A DNA stretch of 64,000 bases from Anaeromyxobacter terrae. GTDB lineage: Bacteria > Myxococcota > Myxococcia > Myxococcales > Anaeromyxobacteraceae. Of the stretch, positions 4,621 through 15,660 are shown in pieces (within the stretch, counting starts at the first letter, position 1; each line of letters begins with the position of its first letter). Location of the stretch: assembly GCF_022690685.1 (NCBI RefSeq), contig NZ_JALCYY010000022.1, positions 1 through 64,000 on the forward strand. Direction: 5' to 3'. The notes beneath the pieces were generated by a model. That model saw nothing but the letters and a program-made list of their open reading frames with translations. It ran no database searches and was not told the origin of the DNA. Both the position numbers and the translations under genes were made by a program.

Positions 4621-6600
<1,980 letters not shown>

Positions 6601-6669
6601 CTCGCCTCCCGCTGGCGTCGCGCCCGCCTCAGGGCGGCGCGGACCGCGGGACCGCTCGCAGGAATCGAA

Positions 6670-6699
6670 GGGCCGCCGGGAGACCGGCGGCCCTTTTTC
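6670..6699 (+). terminator. rho-independent terminator of groESL
   Basis: The 10-bp stem GGGCCGCCGG / CCGGCGGCCC with a GAGA loop is followed by TTTTTCT. The same hairpin, with paired base changes, recurs after the groEL relic at 15627. Confidence 0.9.
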
Positions 6700-7015: not shown

Positions 7016-10000
7016 ATGTTCGCCGGGATCGTCGCAGCACAACTGCTGTTCTTGACGCAGGGAGTCTGTGCCACGGGGAGTACGCGTACCTGCAAGCTCA
7101 GCGGCTGCGCCGCTGCCGAGCAGGTCTGCCTCGACGGCCGGACGTGGGGCACGTGCACGTGCACGCGCTGCGACGACGCGAACGTGTGCACCGCAGACAG
7201 CTGGGGGGGAACGAGCTGTCGCTACGATCCCGTACCCGTGGAGGACGACGGAGACTCTTGCACGACGGACAGCTGCGATCCCGTCAAAGGGATGCTTCAC
7301 GTCGCAATCGCGGGCTGCACAGTCACGCCTCCCGACCCGTCGACGGTGGCGAGTCCGCTCAGCAGCACGTCCATCACGTCGTTCGCCGATTCGGTAGCGT
7401 TTCTCTACTCGGGAACGAATCGCATCCAGTTCGGTGTCGCTGCCGGCGCGATCGATCTCACGCGTATCGCGGTCGCGCGCGGCAAGGCGCTCTCGAGCGA
7501 GGGCGTTCCGGTTTCGGGCGCGCTGGTGACGATCGTCGGGCGCCCGCAGTTCGGTCATACGTACACCCGAAGCGATGGCAGCTACGACCTCGTCGTGAAC
7601 GGAGGAGAGCAGGTCGTGGCGCAGGTCGCGAAGGCAGGGTTTCTCCCCGCGCACGCGCGGGCTTTCGCACGACCACTGGACTACACGCCTCTCGAAGACG
7701 TCATCTTGCTCCCACACGATGCTAGGGTCACCAGGGTCGCCATGGGGATCTCGGCGACGCAGGTCGCACGTGGCTCGGCGGTCGATGACGGCGCCGGCGT
7801 GCGGCAGGCCACGGTGGTGTTTCCTCCTGGGACCTACGCTGGGATTTCTCTTCCCGATGGGACGAGCCAGCAGCTCTCCACGATGAACGTGCGCTTTACC
7901 GAATACACGGCGACGCCATACGGGAAGAAGGCGATGCCGGGCGAGCTCCCCCCGACCAGCGCCTACACATACGCAATCGAGCTGGGAGCCGACGAAGCGG
8001 TCGCGGCGGGAGCGACCGAGGTCAAGTTCAATCAGGCCGTAGCGATGTACATCGAGAATTACCTAGCGTTCCCCGTGGGCGGACGTGTGCCCGTGGGGTA
8101 TTACGACCGGGCGAAGGGGAAATGGGTCCCTTCGAACGACGGTCGAGTCGTCGCGATCTTGGGCGTGAATGCCGGGCTCGCCGCGCTCGACGTAGACGGA
8201 AGCGGGTTCGAAGCGACCCCGACGCAGCTATCGGCTCTCGGAATCACTGACGCGGAGCGAATCGAGCTCGCCGGCCTTTATCAAGCCGGTCGGAGCCTCT
8301 GGCGCGTGCAGGTGACCCATTTCACACCGTGGGACTGCAACTGGCCCTACGGTTGTAAGGACGCGGACGGCGACGGCAAGCCGGACTGTGCGCAGCCGAA
8401 CGCTCCGCCACCTAAGGAGCACCACGACGACTGCAACAGTACGCAGACGGGTTCGATCATCGAGTGCCAGAACCAAACGCTCGGCGAGAAGGTGTCCGTG
8501 GTTGGGACGCCGTTCGAGCTCTACTACAAGAGCGACCGTGCTTCAGGATACAAGGCGGCGAACACTGCCAGGATCCCAATCACCGGCGCTGTCGTTCCGC
8601 CAGGCCTGCTGAAGATCGAGGTCGAACTCGGGATCGCGGGGCGCAGCTTCAAATACGACTTCGTGCCTCCGTTCTCGCCGGACCAAAGCTTCACGTTCGA
8701 GTGGGACGGAAAGGATGCGTATTCTCGTGAGCTACGGGGAAGAGCGGCGCTGAGCATTCGCATCGGATATTCCTACGATACAGTCTACTTGGAGCCCTCA
8801 GACCGAAACGGTCCGATGAGCTTCGGCGCGCTCTCGGGGAGCGGCGTCTCATTCTCGGCAACCCGGTCCCGCGGCCCCGTCACGATATACCAAGCGTGGA
8901 ACACGTCGTTGGGCGCGTGGGCGCCTCGGGCCGCGGGTCTCGGCGGGTGGGCACTGAGCCCGCACCACGGGTACGACCCGGTCGGTAGAATCGTGTACTT
9001 CGGGGACGGAAAGCAGCGGCGCCTCGCAGAGCTTCCGCCCATCATGACGACGTTCTCGGGCGGGGGCACCGACACCGGCGATGGGATTCCAGCCGGGCAA
9101 GCATCCCTGTCCGCTCCGATCGCCGTCGGCGTGGCACCGGATGGAACCGTGTACATCGGCGACGGTAGCCGAGTGCGAAGGGTCGGGCAGGACGGACTCA
9201 TCACCACGGTCGCTGGAATCGTCGGCACGTGCAGAGAAGCCGGCGAAGGGGGCGCAGCAATCGGCGCCTGCCTGGGTGCAAAGGACGTCGAGGTGGAGGA
9301 GGACGGAGCGCTTCTCGTCGCCGATTATCACGCTTCGGGGGGTCGGTACGTTTCAAGGATCATTCGGATCACACCGGACGGCCTCATCCACATCGTCGCA
9401 GGCAATGGGACCACCGGATTCTCCGGGGATGGTGGGCCGGCGACGCTGGCCATGATCGACCAGCCGTTGACTGCTGTTCGCGGCCCCGACGGGAGCATCT
9501 TCTTCAACGAGTACAGCTGTCGCGTTCGGAGAGTGGATCCCGTCGGAACGATCAGCACCATCGCCGGGACGGGCGTGTGCGGTTCGTCAACCTTCGTCGA
9601 GGGCAGCCGCGCAGCGAGCGTGAGCTTCTTCGCGCGCGGGGCGCAGATCGGGGTTGGGGGCGACGGGAGCGTCTACATCCCGGACTGGGACGGTTCGATG
9701 TACCGTACCTCGCCGTACCTGCGCGTGCTCCGCGTGACGCCGGAAGGCGCGGTCTACACCTTCGCTGGCAACAACGACGACCACGTCACGGGCGATGGGG
9801 GACAGGCACGCCTGGCGGGGGTCGGCTGGGTATTCAGCGTCACTGTCGGTCCAGACGGAAGCGTGTATCTCGGTGAGGGCGACCTGTGGCTTGGGACAGG
9901 GGACAACCTGGTGCGTCGCATCAGGCCCGACGGGGTCATCACGACGCTTGCGGGGAAGTATCAAGGCGGAACGACGCAGGAGGGCGTCGTGGCGACCGAG

Positions 10001-13000
10001 GGCGCCCTCTCGCGCCCCGAGGGCCTCGCAATCGGTCCCGACGGATCCCTGTACGTTGCCTCGTCGTGGTCGAAGAGAGTGAAGAAGGTGGCGCTCCCGC
10101 TCCCGGGGCATGTCGCAGGGAACATCGCGGTCGCGAGCTTTTCGGGGAAGGACCTCTACGTCTTTGATGCTAAAGGGCGGCACCTTCGAACGTTGGACAC
10201 ACGGACCGGTCTGGCGTCACATTCGTTCGCCTACGACTCATCGGGACTTCTCGCATCCATCGCGGACGTCGACGGCAATACGACGCGTATCGAGCGCGAT
10301 GGGCAGGGCTCGCCCGTCGCCCTGCTGGCGCCCAATGGCCAGCGTACCGATTTCGTGGTGGATGCCGACGGGTATCTCAGGAGCGTGGCCAACCCCGCGG
10401 GAGAGGCGACGACGTTCGCATATTTCCCCGGGGGCTTGCTCTCGACCTACGTCGATCCGCGGCAGAACTCACACACGTTTGGCTACGACACTCTCGGCCG
10501 CCTCACCAGCGATGCGAACCCCGCGGGAGGCCTGAAGAACCTCGCCCGATCTGAGCGGACGGACGGTTACACCGTGTCGCTGACGAGCGCGTTCGACGCA
10601 ACCACGTCTCTGGCGTACGTGTACGAGGTCCAGGAAGCAGCTACCGGAGACCGCACGAATACGGACACCGAGCCGGACGGTTCCCAGACGACAACGGTGC
10701 GGACCGCGAGCGGGAGCATGGTCACCACGTTCGCCGATGGGACGGTCGTCAGTACGTCGCAGGCGCCTGATCCACGATTTGGGCTTCACGCGCCGTTAGC
10801 CGCCACCAGCATGTCCACGCCGGGCGGTCTCTCAATGACGACGCTACAGAGTCGTTCCGTCGTCCTTGCCGACCCAAACGACCTCCTGAGCGTGACGTCA
10901 GCCTCAAGCAGTCTTACCGTTAACGGTCGTGCGTTCACGGAGACGTACAACGCGACGACTCGGCGCCTCACCGCGACGACCCCCGCAGGCAGAACAGCAC
11001 GTCGGGTGTTCGATGAGCGGGGGCACGTAGTGCGGCTCGAGCCGGCAGGCTATCCCGCCCTGAACGCGATCACCCTCGCATACGACAGCTCGGGCCGGGT
11101 CACACTTGTCGAGCAAGGCAGCCGTACGCTGGGCATCGCGTACGACAGCGCCGGGCTCCCCAGTACGCTGACAGAGCCGTCGCGCGATCCGGTTCGGCTT
11201 TGGTACGACCTCGCTGGAAGGACCCGGCAAGCGGATCTGCCTGGGAACCGGAGCGTTCTCTACGGATACGACGCGAATGGCAACATGACTAGCATAGAGC
11301 CGCCGGGGCGGACAGCACACGTATTTGGCTTTGACTCGGTAAACAGGCTCGACACATACAATCCGCCGGCAGTTCCGAGCCTCGATCTCACGCCTACTGT
11401 TTATGAGTATGGATTTGATGATGCACTCACGGCCACCCTGCTCCCGGATGGAAGCTCGATTGCCATCACCCATGAACGAGGCGTGACGGGATACTCAACT
11501 GGGCGCATCGGTTCCCTGACCACATGGCGCGGAACCACATCCCTGTCCTACGATCTGGCCGGGCGCCTCGCCGTACTCACGGCGCCTGGGGGAGAAGCCC
11601 TGTCCAAAGGCTACGATGGGGCCCTACTTACTTCCGAGATTTCCACTGGGTCTGTGTCCGGCTCCGTCACGTTCGGCTACGACACTGATCTGCGACTTGC
11701 GACTGTCGCAGTGGACGGGGCTCCGGTCAGTAACAGTTATGACGACGACGGGCTACTGACGAGTGCGGGTCAGCTGTCTATCGTGCGCCATCCAGCGACA
11801 GGGCTCGCCACGTCCACTTCGCTAGGCGTCATCTCTACGGCGCAGTCGTACAATGGGTATGGAGAACTCGAGAGCTTCAGTGCCGCCGCGGGGGCGTCGA
11901 CTCTGTATTCCTACGTGCTCGTTAGCGACACATTGGGGCGCATCTCGTCCAAGACCGAGAACATTGGCGGTGTAACGACAGCATACGACTATGGATATGA
12001 CACCGCAGGGCGGCTCTCCGACGTAACTGTGAACGGGCAGCTTGTCGCGACGTACCTATACGATGCGAACGGGAACCGGCTACAGAAGACGAGCGCCGCT
12101 GGCGTTGAAGAGGGTGCCACAGACGCGCAAGATCGGATGCTCTCCTACGGTAGCGCCACATATACATACGGTCCCAACGGGGACCTGCGGACCAGGGCGG
12201 TCGGAGACGAGATGACAGCATATGCCTACGATCCCTTCGGAAACCTGGTAGCGGTGACGTTGCCCGATGGGACCCAGCTCGACTATTTGGTGGATGCTCG
12301 GAACCGCCGTATCGGCAAGAAGGTAAACGGTCAGTTGGTGGAAGGCTTCCTGTATCAGGATCAACTCAAGCCTATCGCTTGGCTCGACAGCTCTGGAAAC
12401 ATCCGCGCTCGGTTTGTGTACGGAACAGGAGTTAACGTTCCGGAGTACATGCAAACCGTCGATGCCACGTACCGCATCCTGACTGACCACCTCGGCAGCC
12501 CGAGGCTCGTCGTCAACACGAGTAATGGAGCGGTGGCCCAGCGACTCGATTATGACGAGTGGGGACATGTAACGTACGACTCCAACCCCGGATTTCAGCC
12601 GTTCGGGTTCGCGGGAGGGCTCTACGATCGCGACACGGGGCTCGTCAGGTTCGGCGCGAGGGACTACGATCCGCAGACTGGGAGGTGGACGAACAAGGAC
12701 CCGATCCGCTTCGCGGCCGGGCTGAATCTCTACGCGTACGTGGACAACGACCCGGCCAACCGTACTGATCCAAAGGGCCTGTATGGCACGACGAGCTGCG
12801 CGCCGTACGATGCGCGATGTCAGCAAAACGGGCATCCGTACTACTGCGAGATCGCACCGATGTTCTGTGAGTTCTTCCCCAAGAATGAACCAGTGTCAGA
12901 TTGCATGAGGAAGTGCCTGCAGGACTACGACAAGCAACGCGACACGAACGTCTGCGAAGACAAGTCGAATCCCTTCAAGAATCCGGATCCGTCGTTCGAG

Positions 13001-13096
13001 TTCAACCTTCAGTGGGAGCACGAAAGCTGTCTCGCCTCGTGTCTCGCCGACGCCAACGCGAACCCGTTCACTCATCAGTCCCAACCCAATGACTAA
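7016..13096 (+). CDS. secreted Rhs/YD-repeat protein with NHL propeller and Cys-rich C-terminal tip
   Basis: The 2026-residue protein starts with a short hydrophobic leader (about 1-19, ending near GVCA) and a Cys-rich module (about 20-100, including CDDANVCTADS). A carboxypeptidase-regulatory-like beta domain follows near 155-215, NHL-type repeats near 690-1030 (DGTVYIGDG, DGSVYLGEG), and many YD/RHS repeats from about 1080. The Rhs core near 1870-1924 carries DYDPQTGRWTNKDPI and NLYAYVDNDP and ends DPKGLYG. The last 102 residues form a variable tip with nine cysteines, including CMRKC and CLASC. Rhs proteins encapsulate and deliver C-terminal toxins; export and toxin role here are inferred. 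Codon use is visibly richer in A/T third bases than in neighbours. The ATG at 7016 follows AGGGGGGT. The 3' end overlaps the next gene by 8 bases. Confidence 0.9.
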   Translation: MFAGIVAAQLLFLTQGVCATGSTRTCKLSGCAAAEQVCLDGRTWGTCTCTRCDDANVCTADSWGGTSCRYDPVPVEDDGDSCTTDSCDPVKGMLHVAIAGCTVTPPDPSTVASPLSSTSITSFADSVAFLYSGTNRIQFGVAAGAIDLTRIAVARGKALSSEGVPVSGALVTIVGRPQFGHTYTRSDGSYDLVVNGGEQVVAQVAKAGFLPAHARAFARPLDYTPLEDVILLPHDARVTRVAMGISATQVARGSAVDDGAGVRQATVVFPPGTYAGISLPDGTSQQLSTMNVRFTEYTATPYGKKAMPGELPPTSAYTYAIELGADEAVAAGATEVKFNQAVAMYIENYLAFPVGGRVPVGYYDRAKGKWVPSNDGRVVAILGVNAGLAALDVDGSGFEATPTQLSALGITDAERIELAGLYQAGRSLWRVQVTHFTPWDCNWPYGCKDADGDGKPDCAQPNAPPPKEHHDDCNSTQTGSIIECQNQTLGEKVSVVGTPFELYYKSDRASGYKAANTARIPITGAVVPPGLLKIEVELGIAGRSFKYDFVPPFSPDQSFTFEWDGKDAYSRELRGRAALSIRIGYSYDTVYLEPSDRNGPMSFGALSGSGVSFSATRSRGPVTIYQAWNTSLGAWAPRAAGLGGWALSPHHGYDPVGRIVYFGDGKQRRLAELPPIMTTFSGGGTDTGDGIPAGQASLSAPIAVGVAPDGTVYIGDGSRVRRVGQDGLITTVAGIVGTCREAGEGGAAIGACLGAKDVEVEEDGALLVADYHASGGRYVSRIIRITPDGLIHIVAGNGTTGFSGDGGPATLAMIDQPLTAVRGPDGSIFFNEYSCRVRRVDPVGTISTIAGTGVCGSSTFVEGSRAASVSFFARGAQIGVGGDGSVYIPDWDGSMYRTSPYLRVLRVTPEGAVYTFAGNNDDHVTGDGGQARLAGVGWVFSVTVGPDGSVYLGEGDLWLGTGDNLVRRIRPDGVITTLAGKYQGGTTQEGVVATEGALSRPEGLAIGPDGSLYVASSWSKRVKKVALPLPGHVAGNIAVASFSGKDLYVFDAKGRHLRTLDTRTGLASHSFAYDSSGLLASIADVDGNTTRIERDGQGSPVALLAPNGQRTDFVVDADGYLRSVANPAGEATTFAYFPGGLLSTYVDPRQNSHTFGYDTLGRLTSDANPAGGLKNLARSERTDGYTVSLTSAFDATTSLAYVYEVQEAATGDRTNTDTEPDGSQTTTVRTASGSMVTTFADGTVVSTSQAPDPRFGLHAPLAATSMSTPGGLSMTTLQSRSVVLADPNDLLSVTSASSSLTVNGRAFTETYNATTRRLTATTPAGRTARRVFDERGHVVRLEPAGYPALNAITLAYDSSGRVTLVEQGSRTLGIAYDSAGLPSTLTEPSRDPVRLWYDLAGRTRQADLPGNRSVLYGYDANGNMTSIEPPGRTAHVFGFDSVNRLDTYNPPAVPSLDLTPTVYEYGFDDALTATLLPDGSSIAITHERGVTGYSTGRIGSLTTWRGTTSLSYDLAGRLAVLTAPGGEALSKGYDGALLTSEISTGSVSGSVTFGYDTDLRLATVAVDGAPVSNSYDDDGLLTSAGQLSIVRHPATGLATSTSLGVISTAQSYNGYGELESFSAAAGASTLYSYVLVSDTLGRISSKTENIGGVTTAYDYGYDTAGRLSDVTVNGQLVATYLYDANGNRLQKTSAAGVEEGATDAQDRMLSYGSATYTYGPNGDLRTRAVGDEMTAYAYDPFGNLVAVTLPDGTQLDYLVDARNRRIGKKVNGQLVEGFLYQDQLKPIAWLDSSGNIRARFVYGTGVNVPEYMQTVDATYRILTDHLGSPRLVVNTSNGAVAQRLDYDEWGHVTYDSNPGFQPFGFAGGLYDRDTGLVRFGARDYDPQTGRWTNKDPIRFAAGLNLYAYVDNDPANRTDPKGLYGTTSCAPYDARCQQNGHPYYCEIAPMFCEFFPKNEPVSDCMRKCLQDYDKQRDTNVCEDKSNPFKNPDPSFEFNLQWEHESCLASCLADANANPFTHQSQPND

Positions 13097-13478
13097 CGAG
13101 ACTAGGGGCGTACTCCTGGCGCTCGGCGTCTTCGTCGTCGAAGCGACGGCGCTGATCGCGATTGTTTGGGGGGTATGGAGGTCTCGAGGTCCGCTGTGGC
13201 TTCGATGGCTCGTGGGCGCGACAGTCTACGTCGCCTATGCCTCCCTGGCGAGCCGGTGGGTGCCCGTCGTGTGGAGCGGCATGGTGATCGCCGTGTTCGC
13301 CGCTCTCGGGAATGCGCTTCTGTTCGGCGCGCGTTCCGGAGCGCATCGGCCAAGTGAATGGTGGGTCATCGCGATGAGGGCGTGGATCGCTCTTGCCGTC
13401 GTTCCCGCGATCTTCCTATTCATCTCGCGAGCGGTCCTGCGGGGCGTCCGAGCATATCGAAGAACGGGGGCACAGTAG
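13089..13478 (+). CDS. small multi-pass membrane protein overlapping the Rhs gene, candidate immunity protein
   Basis: The 129-residue protein has four hydrophobic segments (about 8-28, 35-55, 60-82 and 93-115) and a basic C-terminus. The ATG at 13089 lies eight bases inside the end of the Rhs gene, the tight coupling typical of toxin and immunity genes. No named family is recognised. If the Rhs tip acts in the periplasm or on the membrane, a membrane-embedded immunity protein would fit; this is inference from position and topology. Base composition matches the Rhs island rather than the core chromosome. Confidence 0.7.
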   Translation: MTNETRGVLLALGVFVVEATALIAIVWGVWRSRGPLWLRWLVGATVYVAYASLASRWVPVVWSGMVIAVFAALGNALLFGARSGAHRPSEWWVIAMRAWIALAVVPAIFLFISRAVLRGVRAYRRTGAQ

Positions 13479-13647
13479 GCGTGCCGCGCCGCCTCCGGGA
13501 GTAAGTCGTGTCCGCGGCTGTGCCGGCAAAGTGCGCGTGAGCGAGCGGGGCATTGAGGATGGCGCGCTCCCGCGAGGTCCTGCGGAGGTCTACCCGTGCG
13601 TTGCGGTCGACTTCAACGGTGAGCATATGGCGGAGGGGCGAGAACGC

Positions 13648-14045
13648 GACCCGGCGGGTCTCTATGGTACAAACGACTGCTGGTTACTACGGCCAGGCGT
13701 GCGCCGCGAATGGCGGCTTCTACGGAGTGCAATGTCGCTCCCGCTGCTTGTAGTGCGTTCCCGCACGAGACAAACGACTGGGGGGATGAAGCCGATCTGC
13801 CGATCGAAAGCCAAGAAGCACATGCAGTCCAGGACTGGGCAGCATGCGTTCGCCAGTGCCTGCAGGAACGGCACAGGGACCGAATGCCCCACCAGAATCA
13901 ATGCCGTGAAGACAACAATATACCACGCGGCGAGAACTTGTCCGATCACGCAGAGTGCATGAAGTCGTGCGGGGAGGACCCGGAGAATCCCTATAGTCCC
14001 GGCGGCCCCCCACTCCCGGACGCGGAGATTCTGCTGTGGAAATGA
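13648..14045 (+). pseudogene. orphan Rhs C-terminal tip broken by two frameshifts
   Basis: Three consecutive frames each match part of the intact Rhs tip. The first reads DPAGLYGT (compare DPKGLYGT). From 13682 the second reads GYYGQACAANGGFY (compare the CQQNGHPYY region). From about 13728 the third reads CNVAPAACSAFP (compare CEIAPMFCEFFP), then CVRQC and CMKSC, and stops at 14045. The twin CX3C motif is retained. The simplest reading is a displaced, duplicated tip cassette that has lost its Rhs body and suffered two indels; sequencing errors are an alternative. A possible internal ATG at 13710 could still express the last 111 residues. It overlaps the next membrane-protein gene exactly as the intact tip does. 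Confidence 0.7.
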
Positions 14046-14503
14046 AACTTCGGCGCACGTCAGCGATGCTCTTGTGGGTTAGCGCGGGTGCGGCGCTACT
14101 TGGGATAGCACTCAACGTCCTCCCTGGATACCGAAATGCCCTCGGCGTCGTCCGATCGGCAACAGACCTATCGATATCCGTTGGCCCGGCACTCGTTTGC
14201 GCAGCGATGCACGCTGGCTGTGCAATACTAGCAAGACGGCGGCAGCCCCCTCGGGGTCGCATCATCGTGCTCTGCGGGATCTACGACGTCGTCGTCGGAG
14301 CGCTAATGTGGGTTCCATGGGCCGGGCTTTGGTTCAGTCTGTTCGCGCCATTCGGGTTCGTGGCTTTCATAGCGGCGTACGGGTCTCGCGGCGTCCAAGT
14401 CCTGAGCTATGCCGCCGCGGCCACTGCTACACTCACGACGGGCATCTGGATCGTGGTGGAGTCCATTCGTTCGCGCGAAAGGCCTGAAAGGGCGCTCGGC
14501 TGA
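14042..14503 (+). CDS. multi-pass membrane protein paired with the orphan Rhs tip
   Basis: A 153-residue protein with four hydrophobic segments (about 10-30, 45-62, 75-105 split by a short loop, and 115-140). The ATG at 14042 overlaps the TGA of the orphan tip as ATGA; a GTG six bases upstream is a possible alternative start. It resembles the 129-residue protein at 13089 in topology and position but not obviously in sequence, which suits immunity proteins matched to different tips. The function is inferred only from that context. Confidence 0.65.
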   Translation: MKLRRTSAMLLWVSAGAALLGIALNVLPGYRNALGVVRSATDLSISVGPALVCAAMHAGCAILARRRQPPRGRIIVLCGIYDVVVGALMWVPWAGLWFSLFAPFGFVAFIAAYGSRGVQVLSYAAAATATLTTGIWIVVESIRSRERPERALG

Positions 14504-14633
14504 GCTGTACACCCTACGGGAAGTGTGGGTTAGGGATTGCGGGCGGCACGTCGGGCTATAGCCCTCCGCGACGGAATCGGCACTTGTACAACCGCGACAA
14601 ACGTTCCACAGGTTGGGAGGGGGAGTGCATCGA

Positions 14634-15398
14634 ATGCGAAGAAGCGAGCTCGTGATCGTCGCGATCATTGCAGGAACCGTTGGCGCCGCGGTTGGAGCGT
14701 CGGGGGCAGTGCTGTGGCAGCGAGGGACGACTCGCCGCATGACGGCCCTGCGGACCGGAACCGCCGGCCAATCGATCAGCCCGTCGCAGATGCCTGCCGC
14801 GACCGGCCCGAGCAGGATCGAGCCGCGATCCGACGACCCGACGCGAGGACCAGCCGTTGCGAAGGTCACACTCATCGAGTTCGCGGACTTCCAGTGCCCG
14901 TTTTCTGCACAGCTACGGCCCACATTGATGCGTTTGCAGCGAGACTTTGGCAAGGACCTGCGCATCGTGTGGAAGCACTCACCCCTCGCATTTCACTCGA
15001 GGGCGATGCCAGCAGCGATCGTCGCTGAATCCGCGCGAGAGCAAGGGAAGTTCTGGGAGATGCATGACAAGCTCTTCACGGATTCCCCGTCACTATCCGA
15101 CGAGGAGTTGTCCTCCGCAGCTGAAGACCTCGGCCTCGACATGACGCGGTTCGTCGACTCGATCCGGACGCAGCGTGACCGGAGCCGGGTCGAGGAGGAC
15201 GCGCGACTAGCAACACTGGTGGGCGCGACCGGTACGCCTACCATCTTCGTGAACTGCAGGCGTGTAACGGGCGCGCAACCGTATGAACAGATGCGCACGA
15301 TCGTGGAACAAGAGTTGATGAAGGCTGAGAAGCTCGCCGAGTCGGGTATACCCCTGGACGAACGGTTCTACGATCGGATCTGCTCCGAGAACCTGTGA
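14634..15398 (+). CDS. membrane-anchored DsbA/thioredoxin-fold protein with CPFS active site
   Basis: A 254-residue protein with an uncleaved-looking N-terminal membrane anchor (about 6-28) and a DsbA-like domain. The nucleophilic cysteine lies in FADFQCPFS (C88), and the cis-proline region GTPT follows later. The second cysteine of the usual CxxC is replaced by Ser91, so classical dithiol oxidase chemistry is unlikely; a monothiol or chaperone-like role is possible. Other cysteines occur in VNCRRV and near the C-terminus (RICSENL). The ATG at 14634 is preferred to an in-frame TTG 21 bases upstream because GGAGGGGGAG lies eight bases before it. It sits inside the Rhs island, next to Cys-rich tips that may need disulphide handling. 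Confidence 0.85.
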
Positions 15399-15406
15399 CG
15401 CCGACG

Positions 15407-15558
15407 GCAATCGACAAGGCCGTCGAGATCAACGTGAGCGAGTTGACGACGCGGCCTCGGTCGCGTCCCTCATGCTCACCACCATGGCGCTCATCGCCGA
15501 GAAGCCGAAGGAGGAGGGCGCGGCCCCGGCCGGCGGCGGGATGGGCGGCATGATGTAG
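15407..15558 (+). pseudogene. relic of a second groEL gene
   Basis: The segment from about 15407 to 15448 matches the intact groEL near 5311-5355 (the IDKAVEI region). It is joined directly to a copy of the groEL 3' end from 15451 (matching 6475 onward), ending in TAG at 15556-15558. The Gly-Gly-Met tail is shorter than in the intact gene. More than a kilobase of internal groEL sequence is missing, so no chaperonin can be made. With the intact groEL at 4957-6600 it brackets the whole Rhs island. Confidence 0.85.
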
Positions 15559-15626
15559 CTCGCCTCCCCGCCGGCGTCGCGCCGCCTCCGCGGCGGCGCG
15601 AACCGCGGGAACGCTCGCAGGATCGA

Positions 15627-15660
15627 GGGGCTGCCGGGAGACCGGCAGCCCCTTTTCCTT
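15627..15660 (+). terminator. rho-independent terminator after the groEL relic
   Basis: The 11-bp stem GGGGCTGCCGG / CCGGCAGCCCC with a GAGA loop is followed by TTTTCCTTT. It is homologous to the hairpin at 6670, but one stem base pair has changed on both sides, so pairing is preserved. Confidence 0.85.

Follow-up and report, generated by a model that had tools for sequence, protein, structure and literature searches.

Teneurin-like proteins are bacterial relatives of animal neuronal receptors, and their nature as polymorphic toxins has been shown only recently. According to that work (Raoelijaona et al. 2026, PMC13018210), they are most frequent in Myxococcota and carry tips that are enclosed by a shell and cleaved; three of the tips chosen there inhibit E. 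coli, genes immediately downstream of the tips act as immunity, and in a Bacillus teneurin-like protein a cysteine of the tip forms a link with the FN-plug. Orphan modules, like orphan immunity genes, are already established. The boundary motif can be the very start of an orphan CT module, with no homology before it; in E. coli EC93, the orphan immunity gene is expressed and the orphan tip that was tested is functional (Poole et al. 2011, PMC3150448), while orphan Rhs immunity proteins of Serratia protect against the tips of other strains (Hagan et al. 2023, PMC10539506).

Here, we describe a locus in a stretch of 64,000 nucleotides (the window) that lies on contig C58 (83 kb) of a draft genome (5.65 Mb, 142 contigs). 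We consider it probable that the locus holds a displaced, decayed tip beside a retained orphan immunity gene, the tip belonging to the same family as that of the intact module upstream. New here are a family of tips that has no relatives in the databases, and a decayed tip whose presumed immunity gene has been retained. The features are as follows.

7016-13096, + strand: intact teneurin-like Rhs gene, 2026 aa (TTR, FN-plug, NHL and YD-shell); open reading frame with Pfam PF25020, PF24329, PF25021 and PF25023 above cut-off
12767-13093, + strand: intact tip from the DPKGLYGT boundary, with nine cysteines including a twin CX3C; from the translation, no family above the Pfam/NCBIfam cut-off
13089-13478, + strand: membrane gene 1, 129 aa, the presumed immunity gene for the intact tip; overlaps the Rhs gene by 8 nt
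13648-14045, + strand: displaced, decayed second tip (the relic), spread over three frames between its DPAGLYGT boundary and its stop, 9/9 cysteines kept; frame changes near 13.68 and 13.73 kb
13710-14045, + strand: the stretch of the relic that remains a single open frame (111 codons, ATG start), with CxxAPxxCxxFP and the twin CX3C; from the list of open reading frames, translation not implied
14042-14503, + strand: membrane gene 2, 153 aa, a presumed orphan immunity gene that shares ATGA with the stop of the relic; under purifying selection by comparison with the copy in a sister species (G005)

One shell type with many tips

The predicted product of the intact gene combines FN-plug, NHL and YD-shell in one protein (PF24329, PF25021 and PF25023, each above its curated cut-off), also matches the Rhs-associated core in the family library search, and is the sole teneurin-TTR protein in its genome. 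Judged by these domains, it is a bacterial teneurin-like protein of the polymorphic toxin class. The DPKG boundary stands at 12767, with cleavage predicted there and a hypervariable tip following the conserved shell. We searched 195 genomes of the phylum with the 200 residues preceding the tip and found shell relatives in 84 of them, the best being 55-70% identical in the core. Among the 29 best relatives, the tips were unrelated to each other and to those of the window, with the exception of one near-identical pair (L043/L044); a small open reading frame followed the tip in most of these, and several such frames overlapped the Rhs stop by 4-14 nt. One shell type bearing unrelated tips with small downstream frames across Myxococcota thus corresponds to the layout of polymorphic toxins.

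Tandem arrays of Rhs core segments (frames of ~250-1050 aa), each segment with its own tip and small open reading frame, were seen in related genomes:

G030: three tandem core/tip/small-frame modules (L101, C90)
G061: two modules (L107, C12)
G070: two modules (L108, C158)
G031: three modules (L109, C63)

Because the modules in these four genomes join a core to different tips in tandem, tip turnover by displacement appears to be common in the teneurin-like class, and the window would represent an old, decayed case of it.

A second tip in three frames

According to the first-pass annotation, a second tip downstream of the intact one repeats the DPxGLYGT boundary, the NG-x2-Y and CxxAPxxCxxFP segments and the twin CX3C in three successive frames, and all of these are indeed present: DPAGLYGT (13648-13671) is read in the first frame, NG-x2-Y in the second, and CxxAPxxCxxFP with both CX3C pairs, followed by the stop, in the third. 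The three-frame match persists when the intact tip (12767-13093) is aligned locally to positions 13600-14045 with frameshifts allowed; this alignment has a score of 113 in comparison with 27 ± 3.4 (maximum 36) for 60 base-shuffled copies of the region and 27 ± 3.9 (maximum 38) for other stretches of the window; the third-frame piece alone matches the intact tip with a BLASTP E value of 3e-4. On the strength of these alignments, the relic is a true homologue of the intact tip. The cysteine framework was likewise claimed to be conserved while other residues vary, and in the alignment all nine cysteines (9/9) correspond, against 30 identical residues at the 90 other positions (33%) and 23 of 82 past the boundary motif. 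That all nine cysteines survive where two thirds of the remaining positions differ is in line with a structural role for them. As their number is odd, one of them would be free or bonded elsewhere; the protein of the window has no cysteine in its matched FN-plug stretch (residues 519-589), so that a bond between tip cysteine and FN-plug of the Bacillus type is not evident in it.

The relic has the arrangement of an orphan tip/immunity module, starting at the boundary motif without a shell, downstream of the main gene and with its own small gene after it. No significant shell remnant was found upstream, a tblastn search of the shell against 13477-13650 returning chance matches only. The two breaks sit in the N-terminal third of the tip, just inside the boundary, and since no complete tip is encoded the relic is the remnant of an orphan module, not an intact one. 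The earlier description as an orphan tip/immunity cassette is supported in that a displaced tip is accompanied by its own membrane gene.

The frame changes bear on two other explanations. One is that an assembly or sequencing error has disrupted a second tip that is really one open frame, making the locus an intact orphan toxin/immunity module. The genome is a draft of 142 contigs assessed from its assembly, both frame changes fall within about 50 bases, and beyond them the relic (13710-14045) stays open for 111 codons, all of which would suit such an error; on the other hand, the neighbouring groEL and membrane gene 2 show no frame-changing gaps when aligned to their relatives, the Rhs gene is open over all of its 2026 codons, and we regard the explanation as improbable. 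Nor is the region a single-base error in an otherwise full gene, the alternative that the first-pass annotation had itself named, since the two frame changes are separate. The other explanation takes the displaced module as a working reserve that recombination at the DPxGLYGT boundary can place on the shell. Homology that begins at the boundary motif is in its favour, as are the long shell segments of the tandem modules in related genomes, which would be able to recombine, and tip exchange has been proposed or shown for other Rhs/CdiA systems. The relic, however, is broken just inside the boundary, has no shell sequence ahead of it and matches the intact tip at only 16 of 24 boundary bases, leaving no obvious homology for recombination, and no relative among the 195 genomes of the phylum carries a swapped copy. 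The use for tip exchange suggested by the first-pass annotation is thus highly unlikely, and we continue to read the second tip as a decayed orphan.

Searches for relatives of the tip with single sequences, in 60 and in 195 genomes of the phylum, found it at this locus only. A match of the relic piece in one genome (G106, L007; E = 0.009) has two stops in its translation and no Rhs context and was set aside as chance. With a two-row profile of the tip, nothing in the phylum genomes scored better than E = 0.04 besides the two copies of the window; the sole match in a wider set of genome contigs (L008, Bacteroidales) is antisense to an ordinary gene and spurious. There were no relatives in plasmids and viral contigs, and nothing significant in a comparison of the profile with PDB. 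AlphaFold models of the tip (pLDDT 47) and of membrane protein 2 (pLDDT 61) are too weak for fold searches and suggest that both may be all-helical. Within the libraries searched, the nine-cysteine, twin-CX3C tip would constitute an undescribed family.

Sequence libraries, PDB and structure model identified no activity for the tip. Its best Pfam matches, all sub-threshold, are cysteine domains of adhesion type, WSC (E = 0.0013, below its cut-off) and PAN; together with the lack of a recognised enzyme motif, these would agree with a tip that ends a surface protein in a structural or adhesive role, the membrane genes aiding its folding or anchoring. We think this unlikely, as the same shell bears many unrelated tips with small downstream genes in related genomes, and tips of the teneurin-like class have been shown to be toxic in the earlier study (PMC13018210). 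A toxic tip thus remains our preferred reading.

Membrane gene 2 and the sister species

The end of the relic was said to overlap a membrane gene by ATGA exactly like the intact tip and its partner. The overlap is there (ATGA, 4 nt, 14042-14045); the exact likeness is not, as the intact Rhs stop and membrane gene 1 share ATGACTAA (8 nt, 13089-13096). Membrane gene 2 may start at the ATG at 14042 or at an in-frame GTG at 14036. By hydropathy, its product has 4-5 hydrophobic segments and that of membrane gene 1 has 3-4; the two proteins have no detectable relatedness (best BLASTP E = 0.075), and membrane gene 2 matches no family in Pfam and other family libraries. Within the phylum, membrane gene 2 occurs only in G000 and G005, at this locus, and the weak matches that the two membrane proteins have elsewhere (E = 1e-5 at best) lie mostly within much longer frames.

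A comparison with members of the family yielded two informative sister species, which show different states of the locus. In G007, sequence just past groEL joins the match to window position 15449 onwards and there is no Rhs gene, as expected for a site without the insert. G005 retains the first ~115 bp of the Rhs gene, followed by ~180 bp of other sequence and then a match to window positions 14031-14459, which begins in the last bases of the relic tip, 11 nt before the ATG of membrane gene 2, and covers that gene. Sequence searches of G005 found no tip of either kind, no shell and no membrane gene 1. The ~180 bp that replace the deleted Rhs gene (L097:5226-5421) include a 35-codon frame for a single hydrophobic peptide. 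At the other end of the match, the last ~15 codons of membrane gene 2 are replaced by an apparent IS end at the contig edge (L097:5840-5963), so that the retention of the gene in G005 may be ending.

The copies of membrane gene 2 in the window and in G005 align without gaps at 84% amino acid identity, with differences at 58 of 414 bases and 22 of 138 residues, giving a dN/dS of 0.26 (NG86) or 0.28 (YN00). In a neutral simulation that placed the same base changes at random, the 2000 trials produced on average 35.9 residue changes and 1.3 stops; none (0/2000) was as conservative as the observed 22 changes, the minimum being 24. The low dN/dS and the simulation thus indicate that purifying selection acted on the gene during some or all of the period after the two species split; this signal averages the entire divergence and may largely predate the loss of the tips. 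Membrane gene 2 is open and selectively maintained without an intact cognate tip in the genome, and it was retained under purifying selection, with its 3′ end now replaced, in a sister species without the toxin. We infer a discarded tip with a retained immunity gene because G005 has lost the Rhs gene and both tips and kept the membrane gene under purifying selection.

Membrane gene 2 might instead follow the relic by chance, as a gene for some unrelated small membrane protein or as a host gene serving another purpose. The gene has no family match, is unrelated to membrane gene 1 and persists in G005 without any tip, as such a gene might; against this, its start overlaps the stop of the tip, its position and membrane character are the same as those of the partner of the intact tip, and its distribution within the phylum is restricted to this locus in two genomes. 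We find a role other than immunity rather unlikely and keep to the reading of an orphan immunity gene.

The locus lies in a low-GC stretch (about 59-67% GC from 7 to 15.5 kb, vs about 70-78% outside). Behind this stretch, the 3′ end of groEL recurs as a partial copy (6473-6699 and 15449-15657, 87% identical) and a short inner groEL piece is also duplicated (5310-5356 and 15405-15452), so that groEL sequence flanks the insert missing from G007 as a direct repeat. Besides the groEL of the window (4957-6600), the genome has further groEL-like copies on contigs C127 (84% DNA identity) and C13 (71%). The same stretch contains, adjoining the two cysteine-rich tips, a gene for a DsbA-like thioredoxin (14613-15398; Pfam DSBA, E = 1.5e-23), whose active-site motif CPFS misses the second cysteine.

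Proposed history and comparison with known systems

In the proposed mechanism, the shell would enclose the tip and cleave it at the DPxG motif, and the released tip would act on a neighbouring cell. Its target would probably be the cell envelope, given that both paired proteins sit in the membrane and that the tip is small and probably disulfide-bonded. At some point the shell gene would have come to bear the current tip, together with the immunity gene paired to it, leaving the other tip behind without a shell; this tip would then have decayed through two frame changes, and the membrane immunity gene may have been kept because it still protected against kin or rivals delivering the old tip. 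Counted against this explanation are the lack of detectable relatedness between the membrane proteins of two related tips, the presumed status of toxicity and immunity in this family, and the confinement of the tip to this locus in the libraries searched. A broader proposal, which we put forward tentatively, is that the tips represent a new class of disulfide-rich twin-CX3C envelope toxin on teneurin-like shells, whose tips are discarded and whose membrane immunity genes are kept as a record of past conflicts, even after the loss of the whole toxin gene.

The evolutionary picture is neat; the functions of tip and immunity protein, and with them the envelope target and the order of events, are presumed. 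The locus offers a natural case for dating the loss of a tip and the retention of immunity from the comparison of two species; its tip family, with nine cysteines in a fixed framework, is a candidate for activity testing. Together with the tandem modules of related genomes, it suggests that the tips of teneurin-like proteins turn over as do those of Rhs and CdiA toxins.

With the teneurin-like proteins of the earlier description (PMC13018210), the intact gene shares TTR, FN-plug, NHL, YD-shell, DPxG, a tip of ~100 residues and a small gene directly downstream. It differs in its nine-cysteine, twin-CX3C tip, which is absent from the tip classes in the sections consulted; the words "orphan" and "displaced" do not occur in the main text of that paper. 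As in the orphan cdiA-CT/cdiI and rhs-CT/rhsI modules (PMC3150448), a displaced tip that starts at the boundary follows the main gene and has its own immunity gene next to it. Unlike in those modules, the orphan tip of the window is of the same family as the intact tip and is broken in frame, and the shell is teneurin-like, not that of an enterobacterial Rhs or CdiA. The closest parallel to the retained gene is in Serratia (PMC10539506), where immunity genes also outlive their tip beside an intact Rhs/immunity pair; the orphan immunity genes there are without a corresponding tip, whereas in the window the decayed tip is still visible ahead of the gene that was retained.
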